DNA of 64,000 nucleotides, from contig JAACMV010000005.1 of NCBI GenBank assembly GCA_010909725.1, positions 434,001-498,000 of the forward strand, read 5' to 3'. Numbering within the stretch: the stretch's first letter is position 1; each line of letters opens with the position of its first letter. This DNA is from Picochlorum sp. 'celeri' (Eukaryota > Chlorophyta > Trebouxiophyceae). A model generated the notes under the pieces. It was not told where the DNA came from, did no database searches, and saw only the letters and a program-made list of their open reading frames with translations. The position numbers and the translations under genes are program-made. Of this stretch, positions 48,014 to 58,099 are shown one piece after another.

Positions 48014-49276
48014 TTATTCATTTCGATAAAAGTATGGAGGGTGCCCATGTGTTGCCGAGACCAGAGGTAATGGCTTCATGGGTGGACCACGACTCTTTTG
48101 TGTCTTGCTGGTCAACACTTTGCCAGAAATGAAGGCCACAGGGCACGAATCAATCTCCGTTTGCAGACTCATCTCATACGTACCATTCTCATCAATTTTG
48201 AATGGTCTATACTCCAGCATCCAGTCTTGCCCCAGAATCCGATAAAAATGCAGTGGTTTTACCAGCATGGTGCTGCCATCATCTGTATTCCCTACTACAG
48301 TGCGTTTCACTTTGACCGCTATATTCTTCGCCTTTGCGTCTATTGTCATGTGATTCAAATTTTTAAAGACCATGGAATATGTAAACTGGATCAGACCTGG
48401 AGCTCGCGACTGAATACCATGGCGCTTCCTCACAGCATTGCCTTTTGGTGCTCTTCCAACCAAGTCTCCTGGGATGAACGCGTCTTGAAGAAGTCGAACA
48501 CTGTTCGCCATCTCATTTGTAGCACAAGGACTGCTGTCATCTTTACTTCGTTGAGAAAGATCGTCTTCATACTGATGCTCAAACTCGAACGAATCCTCCT
48601 CATGCAAAACCTGTGCAAACGTAAACTCTGAAGCAACCTGGTACTCCACCATACTACTCTCACTGATCGGCGTGACTCTAACCTTGGCAAAATTTCGTAG
48701 CAAATCACTATCTAAAGAATCAATATCAGGAGTCCTTTCATATTCGCTGGATTCATCCAAAGAAGCAATCAACCCTGTACACTGTGGCTCTTGAGATGGA
48801 GAGACATGATCATCAGAAAAGCCCAACATCTCCGGTGTAGAGCAACTCACCTCCCCCATAGGCGTCCACATATACTCCTCAACTCCTTTCTCTTCAAAAC
48901 CAGCCCTCCCATTGTACACTCGACAACGCGCACAGACATCACCCACACGCTCAAACAACCAATCAAGACACACCACTGGGATGCCCTTCTCCCAACATTT
49001 CATCACCTTGTCAGTCTTCAAAACAACCTCGGCATACTCTTGACACAATACCAGGTCTCTCTTTGTCAAAGGAATCAACAGATGAGTCGTCTTCGTCACA
49101 TCCAAATCTCCAGAATACGTAATTCCATGGATGCCACAGAGATTCTTCACATCCTCCCTGCTCGAGTGCAAAAACCCACTCGAGCATACCGTAACGTCAC
49201 AGTCACATGAATCGGAGCATTTTTTATCACGTTGTGAGCTCTGAACCAACTCTCGAAGGTGGACAATACCTTCCAT
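48014..49276 (-). CDS. BRCT-domain protein, otherwise unrecognised
   Basis: 420 residues from the ATG at 49276. The frame is open 24 codons further upstream but there is no ATG there and a TGA blocks it. A BRCT-like domain covers residues 30-115: VTVCSSGFLHSSREDVKNL, GITYSGDLDVTKTTHLLIPL, WEKGIPVVCLDWLFE with the conserved Trp. An acidic, Ser-rich middle segment follows, then a C-terminal domain of about 130 residues (QFTYSMVFKNLNHMTIDAKA onward) not recognised. BRCT domains bind phosphoproteins in DNA repair and checkpoint complexes. A 5-codon upstream ORF (49349-49366) precedes it. Confidence 0.7.
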   Translation of the reverse strand: MEGIVHLRELVQSSQRDKKCSDSCDCDVTVCSSGFLHSSREDVKNLCGIHGITYSGDLDVTKTTHLLIPLTKRDLVLCQEYAEVVLKTDKVMKCWEKGIPVVCLDWLFERVGDVCARCRVYNGRAGFEEKGVEEYMWTPMGEVSCSTPEMLGFSDDHVSPSQEPQCTGLIASLDESSEYERTPDIDSLDSDLLRNFAKVRVTPISESSMVEYQVASEFTFAQVLHEEDSFEFEHQYEDDLSQRSKDDSSPCATNEMANSVRLLQDAFIPGDLVGRAPKGNAVRKRHGIQSRAPGLIQFTYSMVFKNLNHMTIDAKAKNIAVKVKRTVVGNTDDGSTMLVKPLHFYRILGQDWMLEYRPFKIDENGTYEMSLQTEIDSCPVAFISGKVLTSKTQKSRGPPMKPLPLVSATHGHPPYFYRNE

Positions 49277-49592
49277 CGCGAGAGAAGGGTCGTCTGTTGG
49301 TTGCTCAGTACCCAACCACCTTGCTACCAGATTTCTCTCTATACCCAATCATTCGCAGATGGTCATCTAAATATAGTAGGTCTTACTACAAAGTTAATAC
49401 AATTACCGACATGCGTGGGGTATCTGCAATAAAAAGGCTCATGCCCAGGGATGTCGTCTTGAAAATACTCATCTTCCCATCCAAGAATCTATTTGACGGG
49501 ATATCAAGCCAAGGAACTTGGCCCCAGTAGTCTGGCCTCAAATTCATGCACATTTCAACCCACTGTAACCCAAAAAGTTGTCCTATACTGAA
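49277..49592. other. divergent promoter region
   Basis: 316 bp between the BRCT gene (-) and HisRS (+). It holds the short upstream ORF of the BRCT gene; nothing else was recognised. Confidence 0.5.
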
Positions 49593-51179
49593 ATGAATGT
49601 ATCAGGAAAGGCGCAAATGACATCTAAGAGTGGCATGATGAACCGACTCTTCGCCAAAGGTGTTCCCACCACCCACTGCTATCGACTGTGGTCCACAGCC
49701 ACGAATGGCTGCCTGTCAATGCAGCATTCATACTCCCGAGTGCATTATAGGCATTTTGATCTTCGTGGAAATCGATCAATTGGGTTATCGAGACGTACAT
49801 TGGTGTCCCAGTCGAGCAGGGTCGTCTGTGCTGCCACAGATTCTCCCACGTCGACGGATCGCAAGGCGGGAAGCAGTTCTATTGGAGGTGGCAAGGGGAA
49901 GAAGCATAAACAGATGATTGATACAAATCCTCCGAGGGGGACGCGCGATTTCCCTCCAGAGGAGAAGAGGATGCAAAAATGGCTGTTTGGGGAGTTTGAT
50001 CGTGTAGCCACAGGATTTGGATTTGAGCATATAGATTTTCCTGTTCTGGAGAGTGAAGAACTCTTTGTTCGTAAGGCTGGTGAGGAGATTACGGATCAGT
50101 TGTATAATTTTGAAGATAAAGGTGGGAGACGGGTGAGTTTGCGCCCAGAGCTGACACCATCATTGGCTCGGTTGGCTTTGCAAAAGGGCAAGGGGTTGGC
50201 GTTGCCTGCGAAATGGTACGCAATCGGGCAATGCTGGAGATATGAGCGTGCGACACGGGGTAGGAGGCGGGAGCATTATCAGTGGAATATGGATATTATT
50301 GGGGTTGAGGGAGTTGAGGCAGAGGCAGAATTGTTGGCTGCCATTACCCAATTCTTCAAAGGTGTTGGCTTGACATCTGCTGATGTGGGGATTAAAGTGT
50401 CTAGTAGAAAAGTATTGCAGCAAGTGTTAGAGTCCTGTGGTTTAGATAGTGAAACGTTTGGTCCTGTGTGTATCTTGGTGGATAAATTGGATAAATTACC
50501 AAGGGAAAAGGTGGTTGATGGTTTGTTGCAGTTGGGGCTCTCGAATGATACTGCCGAGAAGATTCTCTCCGCATTGAATGTGAAAGATGTAGGTGGTTTA
50601 GAGAGTTTAATAGGAGAAGATAATGATGCTGTGAAGGATCTCAAGCGATTGTTTGATCTCGCGGCAGCCTATGGGTACGATGAGTACCTGGTGTTTGATG
50701 CCAGTGTGGTTCGTGGATTAGCATATTATACAGGAGTGGTGTTTGAAGGTTTTGATAGAGAGGGCAAATTGCGTGCAATTTGTGGAGGAGGGAGATATGA
50801 TAAGCTTCTCGGGACATTTGGAGGCGAGGATCAGCCGTGTGTTGGGTTTGGGTTTGGTGATGCAGTGATTATGGAGCTCTTGTCTGACAAGGGCTTGTTG
50901 CCAACACCGAGTCATTCTGTTGATGACCTCGTCATCGCCATGGATAAAGAGCTGTATCCAGCTGCGTGTAGTATTGCTTCAAAGTTGAGAGCCAACAATA
51001 AGACTGTGGATCTTGTCTTGGATTCAGGAAAGAAGATGAAGTGGGCTTTCAAGCAGGCTGAGCGCTGTGGCGCATCTCGACTCGTGTTGGTTGCTCCAGA
51101 CGAGTGGGAGAAGGGACTTGTTCGAGTGAAAAATCTGGAGACTAGAGAAGAAGAAGATGTACCAATTGATAATATCTAA
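49593..51179 (+). CDS. HARS: histidyl-tRNA synthetase, organelle-targeted
   Basis: 528 residues. The first 110 residues are basic and Ser/Arg-rich, suggesting plastid and/or mitochondrial import; several Met codons follow closely, so the exact start among 49593, 49617 and later ATGs is uncertain. The class II catalytic core begins PPRGTRDFPPEEKRM, with motif 2 QCWRYERATRGRRREHYQWN and SLRPELTPSLARL, the HisRS-specific RGLAYYTGVVFE and motif 3 CVGFGFGDAVIMELL. The C-terminal anticodon-binding domain follows (LVIAMDKELYPAACSIASKL). It charges tRNA-His. A TGTAA lies right after the stop, at 51182. Confidence 0.95.
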   Translation: MNVSGKAQMTSKSGMMNRLFAKGVPTTHCYRLWSTATNGCLSMQHSYSRVHYRHFDLRGNRSIGLSRRTLVSQSSRVVCAATDSPTSTDRKAGSSSIGGGKGKKHKQMIDTNPPRGTRDFPPEEKRMQKWLFGEFDRVATGFGFEHIDFPVLESEELFVRKAGEEITDQLYNFEDKGGRRVSLRPELTPSLARLALQKGKGLALPAKWYAIGQCWRYERATRGRRREHYQWNMDIIGVEGVEAEAELLAAITQFFKGVGLTSADVGIKVSSRKVLQQVLESCGLDSETFGPVCILVDKLDKLPREKVVDGLLQLGLSNDTAEKILSALNVKDVGGLESLIGEDNDAVKDLKRLFDLAAAYGYDEYLVFDASVVRGLAYYTGVVFEGFDREGKLRAICGGGRYDKLLGTFGGEDQPCVGFGFGDAVIMELLSDKGLLPTPSHSVDDLVIAMDKELYPAACSIASKLRANNKTVDLVLDSGKKMKWAFKQAERCGASRLVLVAPDEWEKGLVRVKNLETREEEDVPIDNI

Positions 51180-51448: not shown

Positions 51449-54243
51449 ATGGAAACAACTTTTCCACAAGGTGCTCCTGTGGATCAGAGCACTGGTATGT
51501 CATTAAATATAGATAATATAATATAAATGTTTGATCTTTGGTCGGTTGATGTGCTGATATGGCTCGGATGATTGGTGCAGGAATCTTGCGGACAAAGTCA
51601 GAGAAACTTTCCCCAAAGTCTACGAATACAGGTGTGTCCGAGTTACACAAGCTTCTGTACTTTAATTATTTCTAATATTTTTTGGTGTATTTCTTTGGGC
51701 AGATGGCACAGGAATGGACAAAAGGCCGCAGCCCCTGCAGGTGGAAAACCTGCAACGGACGAGCAGTAGTACGTTAGCAAGTGAAGCTAGCCAAAGTATA
51801 AAAGCAGGTCATCTAGATTCTTTTGTTTCTTCTCCATCCATGCGAGGATCCATGGATGTTAAAGGCCCCGAAAGTGGTCAATTTGTGGTTCTTCCAGCAG
51901 GGAAGTATGGGCAAATGTCTCCTCGGCGCTTGACCCCACGATCCTCAAGGAGGGGTGGTAGTTCGACCTCTGGACAAACTGTCACAGCAAAAGTGGACCG
52001 GAAAACTCCTAGTCCTAGGAAAGGCTGTACACCTATTAGGGAACTTGATCGTATGGCTATTGAGGCAAAGGCTCCGCCAAGGTTTATCTGCCCCATCTCT
52101 GGCAGAGTCATGAAAGATCCTGTGATCCTTGCGACTGGGACAACGTGCGATAGATGTGCGCTGGAGAAAAGACTTGCAAAAGGACAGAAGAGATGTCCTG
52201 TCACGAATAAAACGTTGCGAGTTCCTATATCAATGACGCCTAATTCGGAGCTCATGATGGCAATCACTGCTTGGGCAAGAAAGAATGCGCCATGGATGAT
52301 GGTATGTACTTACAATTGCGATGTTTATTTATATATATCACATGGATATTGATACTACTTATTGCATTGCGTAGGATCCCTCTGGATCATTTATTCTGAC
52401 AGAGGAGACAAATAGATATGATTTTCAGGGAAATGATACCCAGTATGTCTCAACCCCAGGTGCAGCAGGTCCGGCCAGAACTCCACCTTCAAGGATGAAC
52501 AGCAATGGATGGACGTATACAAATGGAAGCAAGGTAAGACCTGGAAGAATCGATATGAACGCTACACCAGGTACTTTGGAAGCAGGGAATGCACCCTGGT
52601 ATGTCCGCAGAGGCATTGCATCCCCAAGAAGCTCGAGACAAATATCACGGTCTAGATCTTCAAGAGGTGGATCCCCACAAAAATCTAAGAAAAAGGTTGT
52701 TCCAGTTGAATGGTACAGTATTGGATTCCTGACACTCATGACAATAGTCTATGTTGCCATGTTCATCCTCTCACTTTCATTTTCCAACTGGGAAATGGCT
52801 CCAATGTCTGAAAATCCATGGTATGGAGCCACAAGGGACGGGCTCGTCCAATCTGGAGCATTGGTATTGCCTTTGATGAATTCACCTGGGAATGAATGGT
52901 GGAGATTGATATCATCGATTTTTCTGCCAGCAGGTCTCATTCACCTTGCTCTGTGCCTTCTCTTTCTGTGGGTATTTGGGGCGTATGCTAGAACTGCCAT
53001 GCCTTTCCCTCAGGCAACCGTTGCGGGACTGTTCCTTTTGTCCTCTCTCGTTGGATCGCTCGCCTCAGCGAACCTCAATGCTGATTACATAGCATGTGGA
53101 GCATTCTCTGGAATCTTGAGTTTATTGGGTGTCATTGCTGCCAGCCAAACACTGGAATGGCCTAGGCGAAAGCTCCTAAACTTGAAAGAATGGTACCTTG
53201 TTACTCTAATTCTTCTCATTGTGTTCGGAGGCTTGATTGTGCTGAGTCTATTCCCTCTTGTCGATGTCTGGTTTTCAATTGGTGGAGCAATCAGTGGTGT
53301 CTGCCTTGCGTATATTGTGATCTTATTCCCAAAGGTACAAACACGTGCAAATGAGAAGCGAACCAAATGGCTCTCAATTCAAATAGGTTCTGGTGTGGTT
53401 CTTGGTGCCATACTTATTGCTGCAATTGTTGGGTGTGCTCTTCCAACAAAAGTGGGAGAATCAGCCAATTTCCTAAAAAGTGCATCGTGTGTTGAGTTAT
53501 CTTCAAGCATGAATTGTGTACCATTCGGATTCTTGGAGAGTGGATGTGGGATGACATGGTCCAAGGATGTGGATTCAGTGGTGGTCGCATGTCCAATCAG
53601 TGACCCTGGGTCCAGTGAGTCCTACACATACTATCCGACTGCCAATGTGACCTTTGATCAGATTGGAGATCTGGATATCACGGAAGTTCAGTGCCAAAAG
53701 AAATGCGATGTGAGAAATGATCCAATTGACGTCATCAGTGTCCCCCCTGTCGTCAATCCGGAGGAACTGCAGCCAATCAATGTGACTGAGAGTGTTGTTG
53801 AGGAACAAACAGCTGCTGTGGCGCCATCCCCAGAGCAAGTGGTCTCTATTGTGCCTGAGATCACAAATGATGTAGCGCCACAGGCGGATCCACCAATATC
53901 AAGTGCTGTTGTAGAACCTCAGACCACTGCTGATGTCCCTAGTACAAAACCAGCAGGAGTCTCTGTGCAATTGGACATCGCGCCATCAAAACAAGAGGTG
54001 CCACGAGCTGCCGCTCCAGTGGAGGTGCCAAAGATTGAGACACCACCTCAGACAGTCGTGAAGCCATTCGCAGCAACAGAACCAGCACCTGCACCAGTGG
54101 AGGTGCCAAAGATTGAGACACCACCTCAGGCAGTAGTGACGCCATTTACAACAACAGAACCAGCACCTGCACCAGTGGAGCTTCCTATTGTTCCTCAAGC
54201 CCAGGGTGCCCAACCACCAAATCCTCTAAATATTATTGGATAA
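51449..54243 (+). CDS. U-box / pseudo-rhomboid membrane protein fusion
   Basis: Spliced: exons 51449-51494, 51581-51631, 51703-52301 and 52375-54243; 854 residues. Residues 1-150 are disordered. A U-box lies at about 156-226 (RFICPISGRVMKDPVILA, TTCDRCALEKRLAKG, CPVTNKTLRVPISMTPNSEL). After a basic linker, a rhomboid-type membrane domain starts near residue 347: EWWRLISSIFLPAGLIHLAL, the position of the catalytic Ser loop reads CGAFSGILSLLG and that of the catalytic His reads VDVWFSIGG, so both active-site residues look lost. A further membrane segment, a Cys-rich domain and a Pro/Val-rich tail with 26-residue repeats follow. U-boxes recruit E2 enzymes, so this could be a membrane ubiquitin ligase that uses a rhomboid pseudoprotease to recognise clients. 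Fusion supported by continuous frame; function inferred. Confidence 0.85.
54016..54171 (+). repeat. 78-bp tandem repeat, two copies, in coding sequence
   Basis: Two in-frame copies (54016-54093, 54094-54171) plus the start of a third at 54172. They encode 26-residue units beginning PVEVPKIETPPQ and ending TEPAPA. DNA of the two copies is nearly identical, suggesting recent duplication. Confidence 0.9.
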
Positions 54244-55843: not shown

Positions 55844-56398
55844 GGCGTTGTATTTTGTTACTCGACTTTATCCATCCACCTGCTTCCAGAATGAAGCCAA
55901 GAAAAGTGCTCCATACTTTCTATAGATTTGTTTTGAGGTTTTTGCTCTGTGGATGTGTCACGAAAACAAAGGAATTCAAATGTCGTAAATAGGATTGACT
56001 CCGTAAATTGAACATTAAAAGAGACACCAATACAGAATCTCATCCAATCTTGTCAAGAAATCGCCCATTCGGAGTTTTAAAAGGTGCACTAGAGCGGCTG
56101 TTACCCCAGATGCAAATGATTAAATACGTGTGAATCGTAATATTCGTGTCTTGATCGTGTACGTTGTTGCCAGGAGGGCTTGTATCGCAAACGCGACTGG
56201 CTAGGTGTGAGAGAATTCTGGACACGTGACACTCATCGAATCAGGATTATCCTGATCCTTGCGTCTCACCAATCGCATTTTTAAATCAATATAAACGCAT
56301 ATTGAAGGCTGCGTGAACAGAATTGCATACATCAGTAGCAAAAGGAGTGACAACGTAACGAAGAACACTTGGTACCAGAGGATATCCAGCAAAGCGAC
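55844..56398. other. divergent promoter region
   Basis: 555 bp between the sugar transporter (-) and CAO (+). No coding frame, RNA gene or repeat was recognised. Confidence 0.5.
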
Positions 56399-58099
56399 AT
56401 GTATACGTCCACATGTAGTACTTCTGGTCGCCATGGGCCTTCTGTCTTGCACAAGGTCTCTGAGAAAAGGCGTGTGATGGATGTTCATCCTAGGGGTGGT
56501 GGTGTCACTGTTGTGTGTAGTAGTCAGAGTGACAGAGAGGCAGAGAGTGGGTCCCTTCAGACCGTCGTGGCTTCAGCCCCGCAAATTCGGTTTAGGAAAG
56601 CTACGGATCGAGCAAGAGATCAGCTTGCCGATCTTGCTGTGTTGAATGAGAGGTTGAGTCGGGCAGATGGCGTGGAAGCTGCTCGGGCACGGAGAAGGGT
56701 TGATTTTATGAAGAGAAGCAGAAAGACTTGGGCAAAAGTCTATGATTATGTCATGGATAATGACGTCGAGTGCACGTTATCAGCTATCGAAGAGGCCAAT
56801 CTGAAGGTGTTGCAGATGCTGGATGAACAGTATAAAGATCGCTCCTCTATTGACTCCATGAAGGCAACTCTGGAGTCTCTGCAGACGCAGGTGGAGGAAG
56901 CCCAGGACAGACTTCAGCGCACACAGAAAAATATTGATGCTAATGTTGAACGTGTGAATGAGTTGAAACAGACTGCAAGAATTTTGGAGCAGTCCTTTAG
57001 CCCAACCAATGATATTCTTCAAGAGCAGGTGCCTGGACAGAGTGGAAAGAAGAATGGGCTGCAAAGCAGCTTACGCCTTGAGCCGGAGTTGAAGGAGCAT
57101 TGGTTTGCGGTGCAGTTTTCTAGCAAATTAGAGGAAAATATGATGATTCCATTCGATCTTTTCAACGAGCCATGGGTTCTGTTTAGGGATTCTGAAGGGA
57201 AGGCAGCATGTGTGAAAGACGAGTGCGCTCACAGAGGATGTCCCATTTCCCCAGGGAAAGTGATTGATGGAGAAGTGGCATGTCCTTATCATGGTTGGCA
57301 ATATGATGCAAACGGTTCATGTACAAAGATGCCGTCAACAAAAATGTGCCCTGGCATCAAAGTCAAGGCATTGCCAATTGTTGAGGTGGATGGGCTGGTG
57401 TGGGTCTGGCCAGGTGCTCAGAAACCTGTTGGCAGTCCAGAAGGCTTGGGTGCTCCTCCAGAAGGCTTTAAACTTCATGCAGAGATAGAGGTGGAAGTAC
57501 CTGTAGAACACGGACTTCTGATCGAGAATCTGCTGGATCTTGCGCATGCTCCATTCACTCACACGTCAACATTTGCCAAGGGATGGCCAATTCCTGATAT
57601 TGTCAAGTTCACCGCAAATAAAGCTCTTTCTGGTGTTTGGCATCCATATCCTATTAACATGGAATTCAGGCCTCCATGTATCACAGTGTCCACAATTGGT
57701 TTGGCACAGCCAGGAAAGATTAAACGGGATGTGACTGCAGAGGACTGTGAAAATCATCTTCACCAAATTCATTTCTGCTTGCCTTCTCGTGAAGGTCACA
57801 CTCGTCTTTTGTATCGTATGAGCATGGACTTTTTGGGATGGCTGCGATATGTTCCAGGTATTCAAAACGTATGGAAGCATGTAGCTGGACAGGTCCTTGG
57901 TGAAGACTTGGTGCTTGTTGTTGGCCAACAGGATCGTCTGAAAAGAGGCGGTGATACCTGGGCACATCCAGTCTCGTACGATAAAATGGCAGTCAGATAC
58001 AGAAGATGGCGTAACAGAATAGCAGAGGGTGGACACGTGAGCCAGACGCCTGTGGAGGCGTCAATGAGTGCTGGAGACCTCTTTGAACTCGAAGAATGA
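56399..58099 (+). CDS. CAO: chlorophyllide a oxygenase
   Basis: 566 residues. Transit-peptide-like start, then a long coiled coil (residues 70-215, e.g. [20 protein letters not shown]) corresponding to the A/B domains, then the catalytic C domain. The Rieske cluster is CAHRGC followed by CPYHGWQYD, i.e. C-x-H and C-x2-H, and the mononuclear iron site is in [20 protein letters not shown]-typical strings follow: [41 protein letters not shown] and [13 protein letters not shown]. It oxidises chlorophyllide a to chlorophyllide b in the plastid; the N-terminal part mediates stability control in plants. The ATG at 56399 is the first good start. TGTAA at 58112. Strong evidence for a green-lineage genome. 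Confidence 0.96.

Follow-up and report, generated by a model that had tools for sequence, protein, structure and literature searches.

A U-box fused to a catalytically inactive rhomboid in the green alga Picochlorum sp. 'celeri': a candidate single-chain membrane ubiquitin ligase

Pseudo-rhomboids are known to work together with membrane-bound ubiquitin ligases (E3s), each as a subunit of its own; the Dsc complex is an example. For quality control in the yeast Golgi, the available parts of two reports describe how the pseudo-rhomboid Dsc2 assesses transmembrane helices while clients are ubiquitinated by the RING ligase Tul1, and how mutation of the L1 loop of Dsc2 halts the degradation of Orm2 and Hmx1 (PMC11513148, PMC11555709). 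We analysed a 64,000-nucleotide stretch of the genome of Picochlorum sp. 'celeri' (GenBank assembly GCA_010909725.1, contig JAACMV010000005.1, positions 434,001 to 498,000), referred to as the window. At window positions 51449..54243, on the plus strand, a single gene joins a U-box to a rhomboid-type membrane domain that has lost its catalytic residues. Derlins with Hrd1, and UBAC2, likewise link a dead rhomboid fold to ubiquitin-dependent degradation, as we propose for the algal protein.

The gene encodes an 854-residue frame in four exons, spliced via three GT-AG introns. Pfam recognizes the U-box with 54.5 bits against a curated cut-off of 21.4, and the rhomboid domain with 55.7 bits against 22.6. 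That one spliced frame joins the two domains had been proposed in a preliminary description of this DNA, and is confirmed by Pfam, by the second haplotype and by P0001, a database protein from Picochlorum sp. SENEW3; the U-box, placed there at about residues 156-226, is matched by Pfam at 156-227. The gene is laid out as follows.
51449..51494, plus strand: exon 1, the N-terminus with residues 1-15 and part of 16, predicted to be cytosolic; GT donor, frame kept
51581..51631, plus strand: exon 2, AG/GT borders, frame kept, likewise in the second haplotype
51703..52301, plus strand: exon 3, which holds the U-box; last residues NAPWMM
52071..52286, plus strand: U-box, residues 156-227 (Pfam PF04564, E 1.3e-14)
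52302..52374, plus strand: intron 3, 73 bases, phase 0
52375..54243, plus strand: exon 4, a single open frame of 622 codons with the linker, seven membrane helices, luminal domain, tail and stop
52891..53322, plus strand: rhomboid domain, residues about 405-548 (Pfam PF01694, E 7.9e-15)

The assembly that contains the window (27.4 Mb, 30 contigs) appears to hold both haplotypes of a diploid, because matches in genome profile searches are nearly always paired on two contigs (U-box 12 of 13, rhomboid 12 of 12, Derlin 8 of 8). On the second haplotype (contig C20) the exon borders, splice sites and open frame all match the window gene, including exon 1, the start of which is also shared by P0001. 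Between the two alleles, 12 codons differ synonymously and 9 change the amino acid, numbers too small to test for selection; none of these codons lies within the U-box. P0001 is the nearest protein found (97% identity over residues 340-680) and, like the window model, runs continuously across all three exon joins. Retention of intron 3 would lead to a stop 16 codons beyond exon 3.

Three protein searches yielded at least 29 relatives; the second added one (P0019) and missed relatives found earlier, and none of the three shows the full range of the family. P0020, which also came from the second search, was removed as lying outside the family: it is a TPR-rhomboid protein whose GASG and His are the usual ones. 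The preliminary description had suggested searching algal proteomes for this architecture. By precomputed Pfam labels the U-box and rhomboid domains occur together in 20 of the 29 relatives; both were re-confirmed by Pfam in P0012, P0021, P0022 and P0030, and for P0018 and P0019 it gives the rhomboid domain only. Among the nine relatives without both labels, five (P0002, P0003, P0014, P0018 and P0019) start with 5-29 unrelated residues that end in Gln and precede the conserved Asp of the intron-3 border, P0015 and P0016 start at a Met just past that border, P0010 at a Met deeper in the linker, and P0029 inside the U-box. We provisionally take these nine to be incomplete predictions rather than members that lack a U-box. 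Because Gln-then-Asp starts are expected from an unspliced CAG acceptor, the position of intron 3 seems to be conserved among the relatives, as read from their protein ends rather than from DNA. The named members come from two Trebouxiophyceae, Picochlorum sp. SENEW3 (where the protein is labelled 'RHOMBOID-like protein 6') and Nannochloris sp. 'desiccata'. Viral contigs gave 33 pattern matches and no relatives. A real, conserved U-box/pseudo-rhomboid fusion, common to the algal relatives, is supported.

The preliminary description knew of no such fusion, and none was found in the literature searched, which consists mostly of titles and the beginnings of abstracts and lacks most subscription journals. 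The word 'U-box' does not occur in the main text of a rhomboid review (PMC12615303), nor 'rhomboid' in the main texts of a review of plant U-box (PUB) ligases (PMC8875423) and a Chlamydomonas survey (PMC4378952). PUB ligases have the U-box in common with the algal protein; the partner domains named in the available parts of these two sources are ARM, TPR, WD40, kinase, UFD2, ankyrin and others, and one Chlamydomonas subfamily has transmembrane segments with the U-box at the C-terminus (PMC4378952). Relative to those lists, the rhomboid would be a new U-box partner. As far as is visible, the architecture is undescribed rather than unseen, since the Pfam labels display it in databases.

The spliced protein contains the rhomboid motifs FLPAG, IHLALC, CGAFSG (473-478) and VDVWFSIGG (528-536), as first quoted. 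The pseudo-active site falls into three segments.
52927..52956, plus strand: pseudo-active site 1, Pro417 at the first His position, His422, Cys426 at the Asn position
53095..53112, plus strand: pseudo-active site 2, CGAFSG, Phe476 at the Ser position
53260..53286, plus strand: pseudo-active site 3, VDVWFSIGG, Ser533 at the His position

We aligned the window protein and its 29 relatives, 30 family sequences in all, with five other rhomboids from the same genome and 19 bacterial rhomboids. The latter derive from 125 relatives on prokaryote contigs, of which 80 were kept, 20 hand-picked and 19 aligned (L032 was outside the length filter); they served only as rhomboid controls, with no U-box check, and were retrieved with patterns that include WWRL and leave the catalytic positions outside. 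In the family, the first His position is occupied by Pro (28) or Thr (2), the His position of HxxxN by His (12) or Gln (18), and its Asn position by Cys (18), Ser (5), Ala (4) or Val (3). At the catalytic Ser position we find Phe (22), Leu (4), Ala (3) and Met (1), and at the catalytic His position Ser (15), Thr (6), Ala (4), Pro (2), Gln (2) and Val (1). Neither the Ser-His dyad nor the HxxxN Asn is present in any of the 30 sequences. At all five positions every one of the 19 bacterial controls shows the expected residue, and the own-genome controls have it at the first His and Asn in 5/5 and at the HxxxN His, the Ser and the catalytic His in 4/5. The substitution of Ser, His and first His initially noticed in the window protein therefore extends to all aligned family members; alignment with active rhomboids leaves no intact catalytic Ser or His at the active site, and the Asn is lost as well.

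The sole exception among the own-genome controls, at each deviating position, is L015 (G000:C7:334258-334704, minus strand; second copy L016). It has GARG for GASG and Asn for the HxxxN His, and may be another pseudo-rhomboid, although beyond an insertion there is a His (PLNHAGNF).

Trp408-Arg409 in loop L1 is kept in 30 of 30 family sequences. The own-genome controls have the Trp in 4/5 and the Arg in 3/5, and the bacterial controls have both in 19/19, largely by construction of the WWRL search pattern. Loss of the chemistry with retention of the fold and L1 fits a putative client-binding pseudoprotease.

Statements on the fold refer to a model of the membrane domain (m2890e95cd818; predicted local distance difference test, pLDDT, 85.6; predicted template modelling score, pTM, 0.83); a full-length model (m061b1f3ed553; mean pLDDT 51.3, pTM 0.38) gave the same order in the fold comparison and was not relied on. 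The membrane and C-terminal parts, in which TM denotes a transmembrane helix, are:
52705..52779, plus strand: TM1, residues 343-367
52780..52935, plus strand: L1 loop, residues 368-419 (52 residues)
53350..53439, plus strand: TM7, residues 558-587, extra to the six-helix core in the domain model
53440..53748, plus strand: domain after TM7, residues 588-690, predicted luminal, six conserved Cys
53749..54240, plus strand: C-terminal tail, Pro/Thr-rich, poorly conserved

The protein has the rhomboid fold, with seven predicted helices and a lost dyad. The segment ahead of TM1 is basic (11 Lys or Arg and no Asp or Glu in 35 residues), a charge pattern that suggests a cytosolic U-box. In the domain after TM7, for which the model predicts three strands plus helices, Cys 604, 613, 623, 638, 672 and 676 are kept in 30, 30, 28, 28, 28 and 28 of 30 rows. 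N-glycosylation sequons occur past TM7 in 26 of 30 sequences, a count with no chance estimate behind it, to which we give little weight. The tail has a mean pairwise identity of 0.24 and none of its 148 columns is invariant (20 relatives).

Among solved structures, iRhom1 and iRhom2 are the closest to the membrane domain by fold and by profile; part of their lead in Z is due to length, since GlpG does not have TM7. The preliminary description had pointed to rhomboid pseudoproteases such as Derlins, UBAC2 and iRhoms. Its interpretation is partly supported: the pseudoprotease part stands and the outline is right, with function still inferred, but the kinship shifts away from Derlins and UBAC2 to the iRhom type. 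Membership among the Derlins or UBAC2 was rejected on Pfam, supported by a weaker fold match: neither DER1 nor UBA is listed for the protein at E values up to 10, a range in which the HMMER filters drop most weak matches, and the genome search gave no DER1 match at this gene, with matches at 1.4e-54 and 1.8e-33 elsewhere. UBAC2 and fission-yeast Dsc2 have a UBA domain. It is absent from budding-yeast Dsc2 too, in the available text of PMC11555709. The genome has two ordinary Derlin loci per haplotype (G000:C11:1115355-1115870 and G000:C5:813699-814283, with second copies on C19 and C20).

The algal protein shares with the iRhoms the seven helices and the lost dyad. It has no counterpart of the IRHD, which lies between TM1 and TM2 of iRhoms and has about 230 residues with 16 Cys in the available text of PMC6451368; its six-Cys domain sits after TM7 instead. 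GPx replaces GxS in iRhoms, whereas the algal protein has GAF (GPF in 4 of 30 family sequences), and of the pair only the algal protein has a U-box. The Dsc complex likewise couples a pseudo-rhomboid client reader to a membrane E3, as far as the sources on it go, but as separate subunits and with a RING; the algal protein is one chain with a U-box, no UBA or UBX match is listed for it, and its core is nearer to iRhom than to Derlin-type chains, Dsc2 being set beside it by description rather than structure.

Mean pairwise identity is highest in the U-box (0.74), where 22 of 72 columns are invariant among 20 relatives; F160, I164, P172, G178, C197-P198-V199 and W223 are the same in 20 of 20. Positions known from work on CHIP to face the ubiquitin-conjugating enzyme (E2) are an Ile and a Pro. 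Among solved structures, the algal U-box is best matched by U-box chains, for example 'U-box domain-containing protein 12', which we take to be plant proteins.

We propose that the protein is a ubiquitin ligase embedded in membranes of the secretory pathway that, in a single chain, reads and ubiquitinates membrane clients, a reading we hold to be rather probable and the most likely one, because the algal chain holds both parts of the Dsc2/Tul1 system. Fusion, conservation, loss of catalytic residues and predicted fold were computed, and orientation was taken from the charge pattern; E2 binding, client binding, ubiquitin transfer with the E2 and client fate are extrapolated from known families. 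The seven-helix pseudo-rhomboid would have lost peptide-bond hydrolysis while retaining the rhomboid fold and the L1 Trp-Arg, and would recognize membrane proteins that are misfolded, orphaned or regulated, binding their transmembrane helices. The U-box, held on the cytosolic side by the long basic linker, would recruit an E2 and ubiquitinate these clients. Cdc48 might then extract them, or sorting to the vacuole might follow. The six-Cys domain may make contacts on the luminal side. We give even odds to the idea that, in a green-alga lineage, a retired secretory rhomboid of iRhom-like type acquired a U-box, which united the client reader and the ligase of membrane-protein quality control in one polypeptide, a self-contained reader and ubiquitinator of transmembrane helices. 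If true, this natural one-chain version would be a minimal test system for whether a dead rhomboid suffices for client choice, and would represent a second route, iRhom-like rather than Derlin-like, that ties the rhomboid fold to degradation.

Several points weigh against this proposal. The L1 Trp-Arg is also found in active rhomboids, so keeping it does not set client readers apart. The nearest structures are iRhoms, which are known mainly as escorts and regulators of clients, and Pfam listed no UBA, UBX or other Cdc48-linked domain. In 19 of the 20 relatives with both domains, TTCDR replaces the usual TYDR, and Arg, Tyr or His replaces the Trp of the usual 'WL'; P0030, the exception, retains Tyr and Trp, and an own-genome U-box locus (L005) shows the usual forms TYDR and WI. 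Because of these deviations, E2 use, judged from the sequence, is likely but not safe.

The second-ranked explanation, which we regard as possible but clearly less probable, is that the protein escorts or stabilizes a small number of specific cargoes in the manner of iRhoms, and that the U-box controls how much of the cargo, or of the whole protein, is present instead of serving general quality control. The iRhom structures are the nearest, and the conserved six-Cys domain suggests a specific luminal partner. KOMPEITO (KOM), an inactive rhomboid-like protein of Arabidopsis, is required for callose accumulation and has a long luminal C-terminal part like the algal protein, to judge from the available text; it is likened here by description, not sequence, and 'U-box' is absent from the main text of its report (PMC9180352). 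A cargo factor of this kind fits less well with the missing IRHD and short L1, and the best-conserved part being the U-box would be odd for an accessory. We think it unlikely that the U-box mainly targets its own protein, as a switch for self-degradation, or serves for docking and has no ligase activity on clients: self-ubiquitination is common among E3s and the TYDR and WL positions deviate, but much of the core, F160, I164 and C197-P198-V199 among it, is invariant, and the long linker would allow reach to neighbours. That the protein still cleaves substrates, by means of an unusual active site, was rejected as highly improbable, since four positions are lost in 30 of 30; Ser477 lies one residue beyond the expected Ser and His422 is kept in the window protein, but the Ser477 column is Ser in 17, Ala in 12 and Gly in 1, the His422 column is mostly Gln, and no member has the catalytic His. 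Two adjacent genes misjoined at the 73-base intron are just as improbable, and this artefact too was rejected: the join depends on predicted splicing at 52302-52374, but most relatives carry both domains in one predicted protein, among them P0012 and P0021 (Joint Genome Institute metagenome proteins, from the protein seemingly unspliced gene calls), and the second haplotype keeps the intron borders.

In the surroundings of the gene, a histidyl-tRNA synthetase frame upstream on the same strand ends at 51179, and a sugar transporter starts from 54329 on the opposite strand. Rfam and tRNA scans of the window gave no matches. A Dsc-type assembly would involve Dsc3-like, Ubx3-like and Tul1-like partners; a search for DUF2921, which we take to be a Tul1/FLY domain, found no matches, but its controls gave none either. 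A frame at 56351-58099 (plus strand) has Rieske and PaO domains by Pfam and is perhaps a chlorophyllide a oxygenase; another at 48014-49348 (minus strand) has a weak BRCT match, barely above the Pfam cut-off. Within the family, all 20 fusion proteins share an invariant Ile-Lys-Ala motif near the N-terminus (51798-51806, residues 65-67), and GRKLRAG occurs near the C-terminus of all eight of P0021-P0028.
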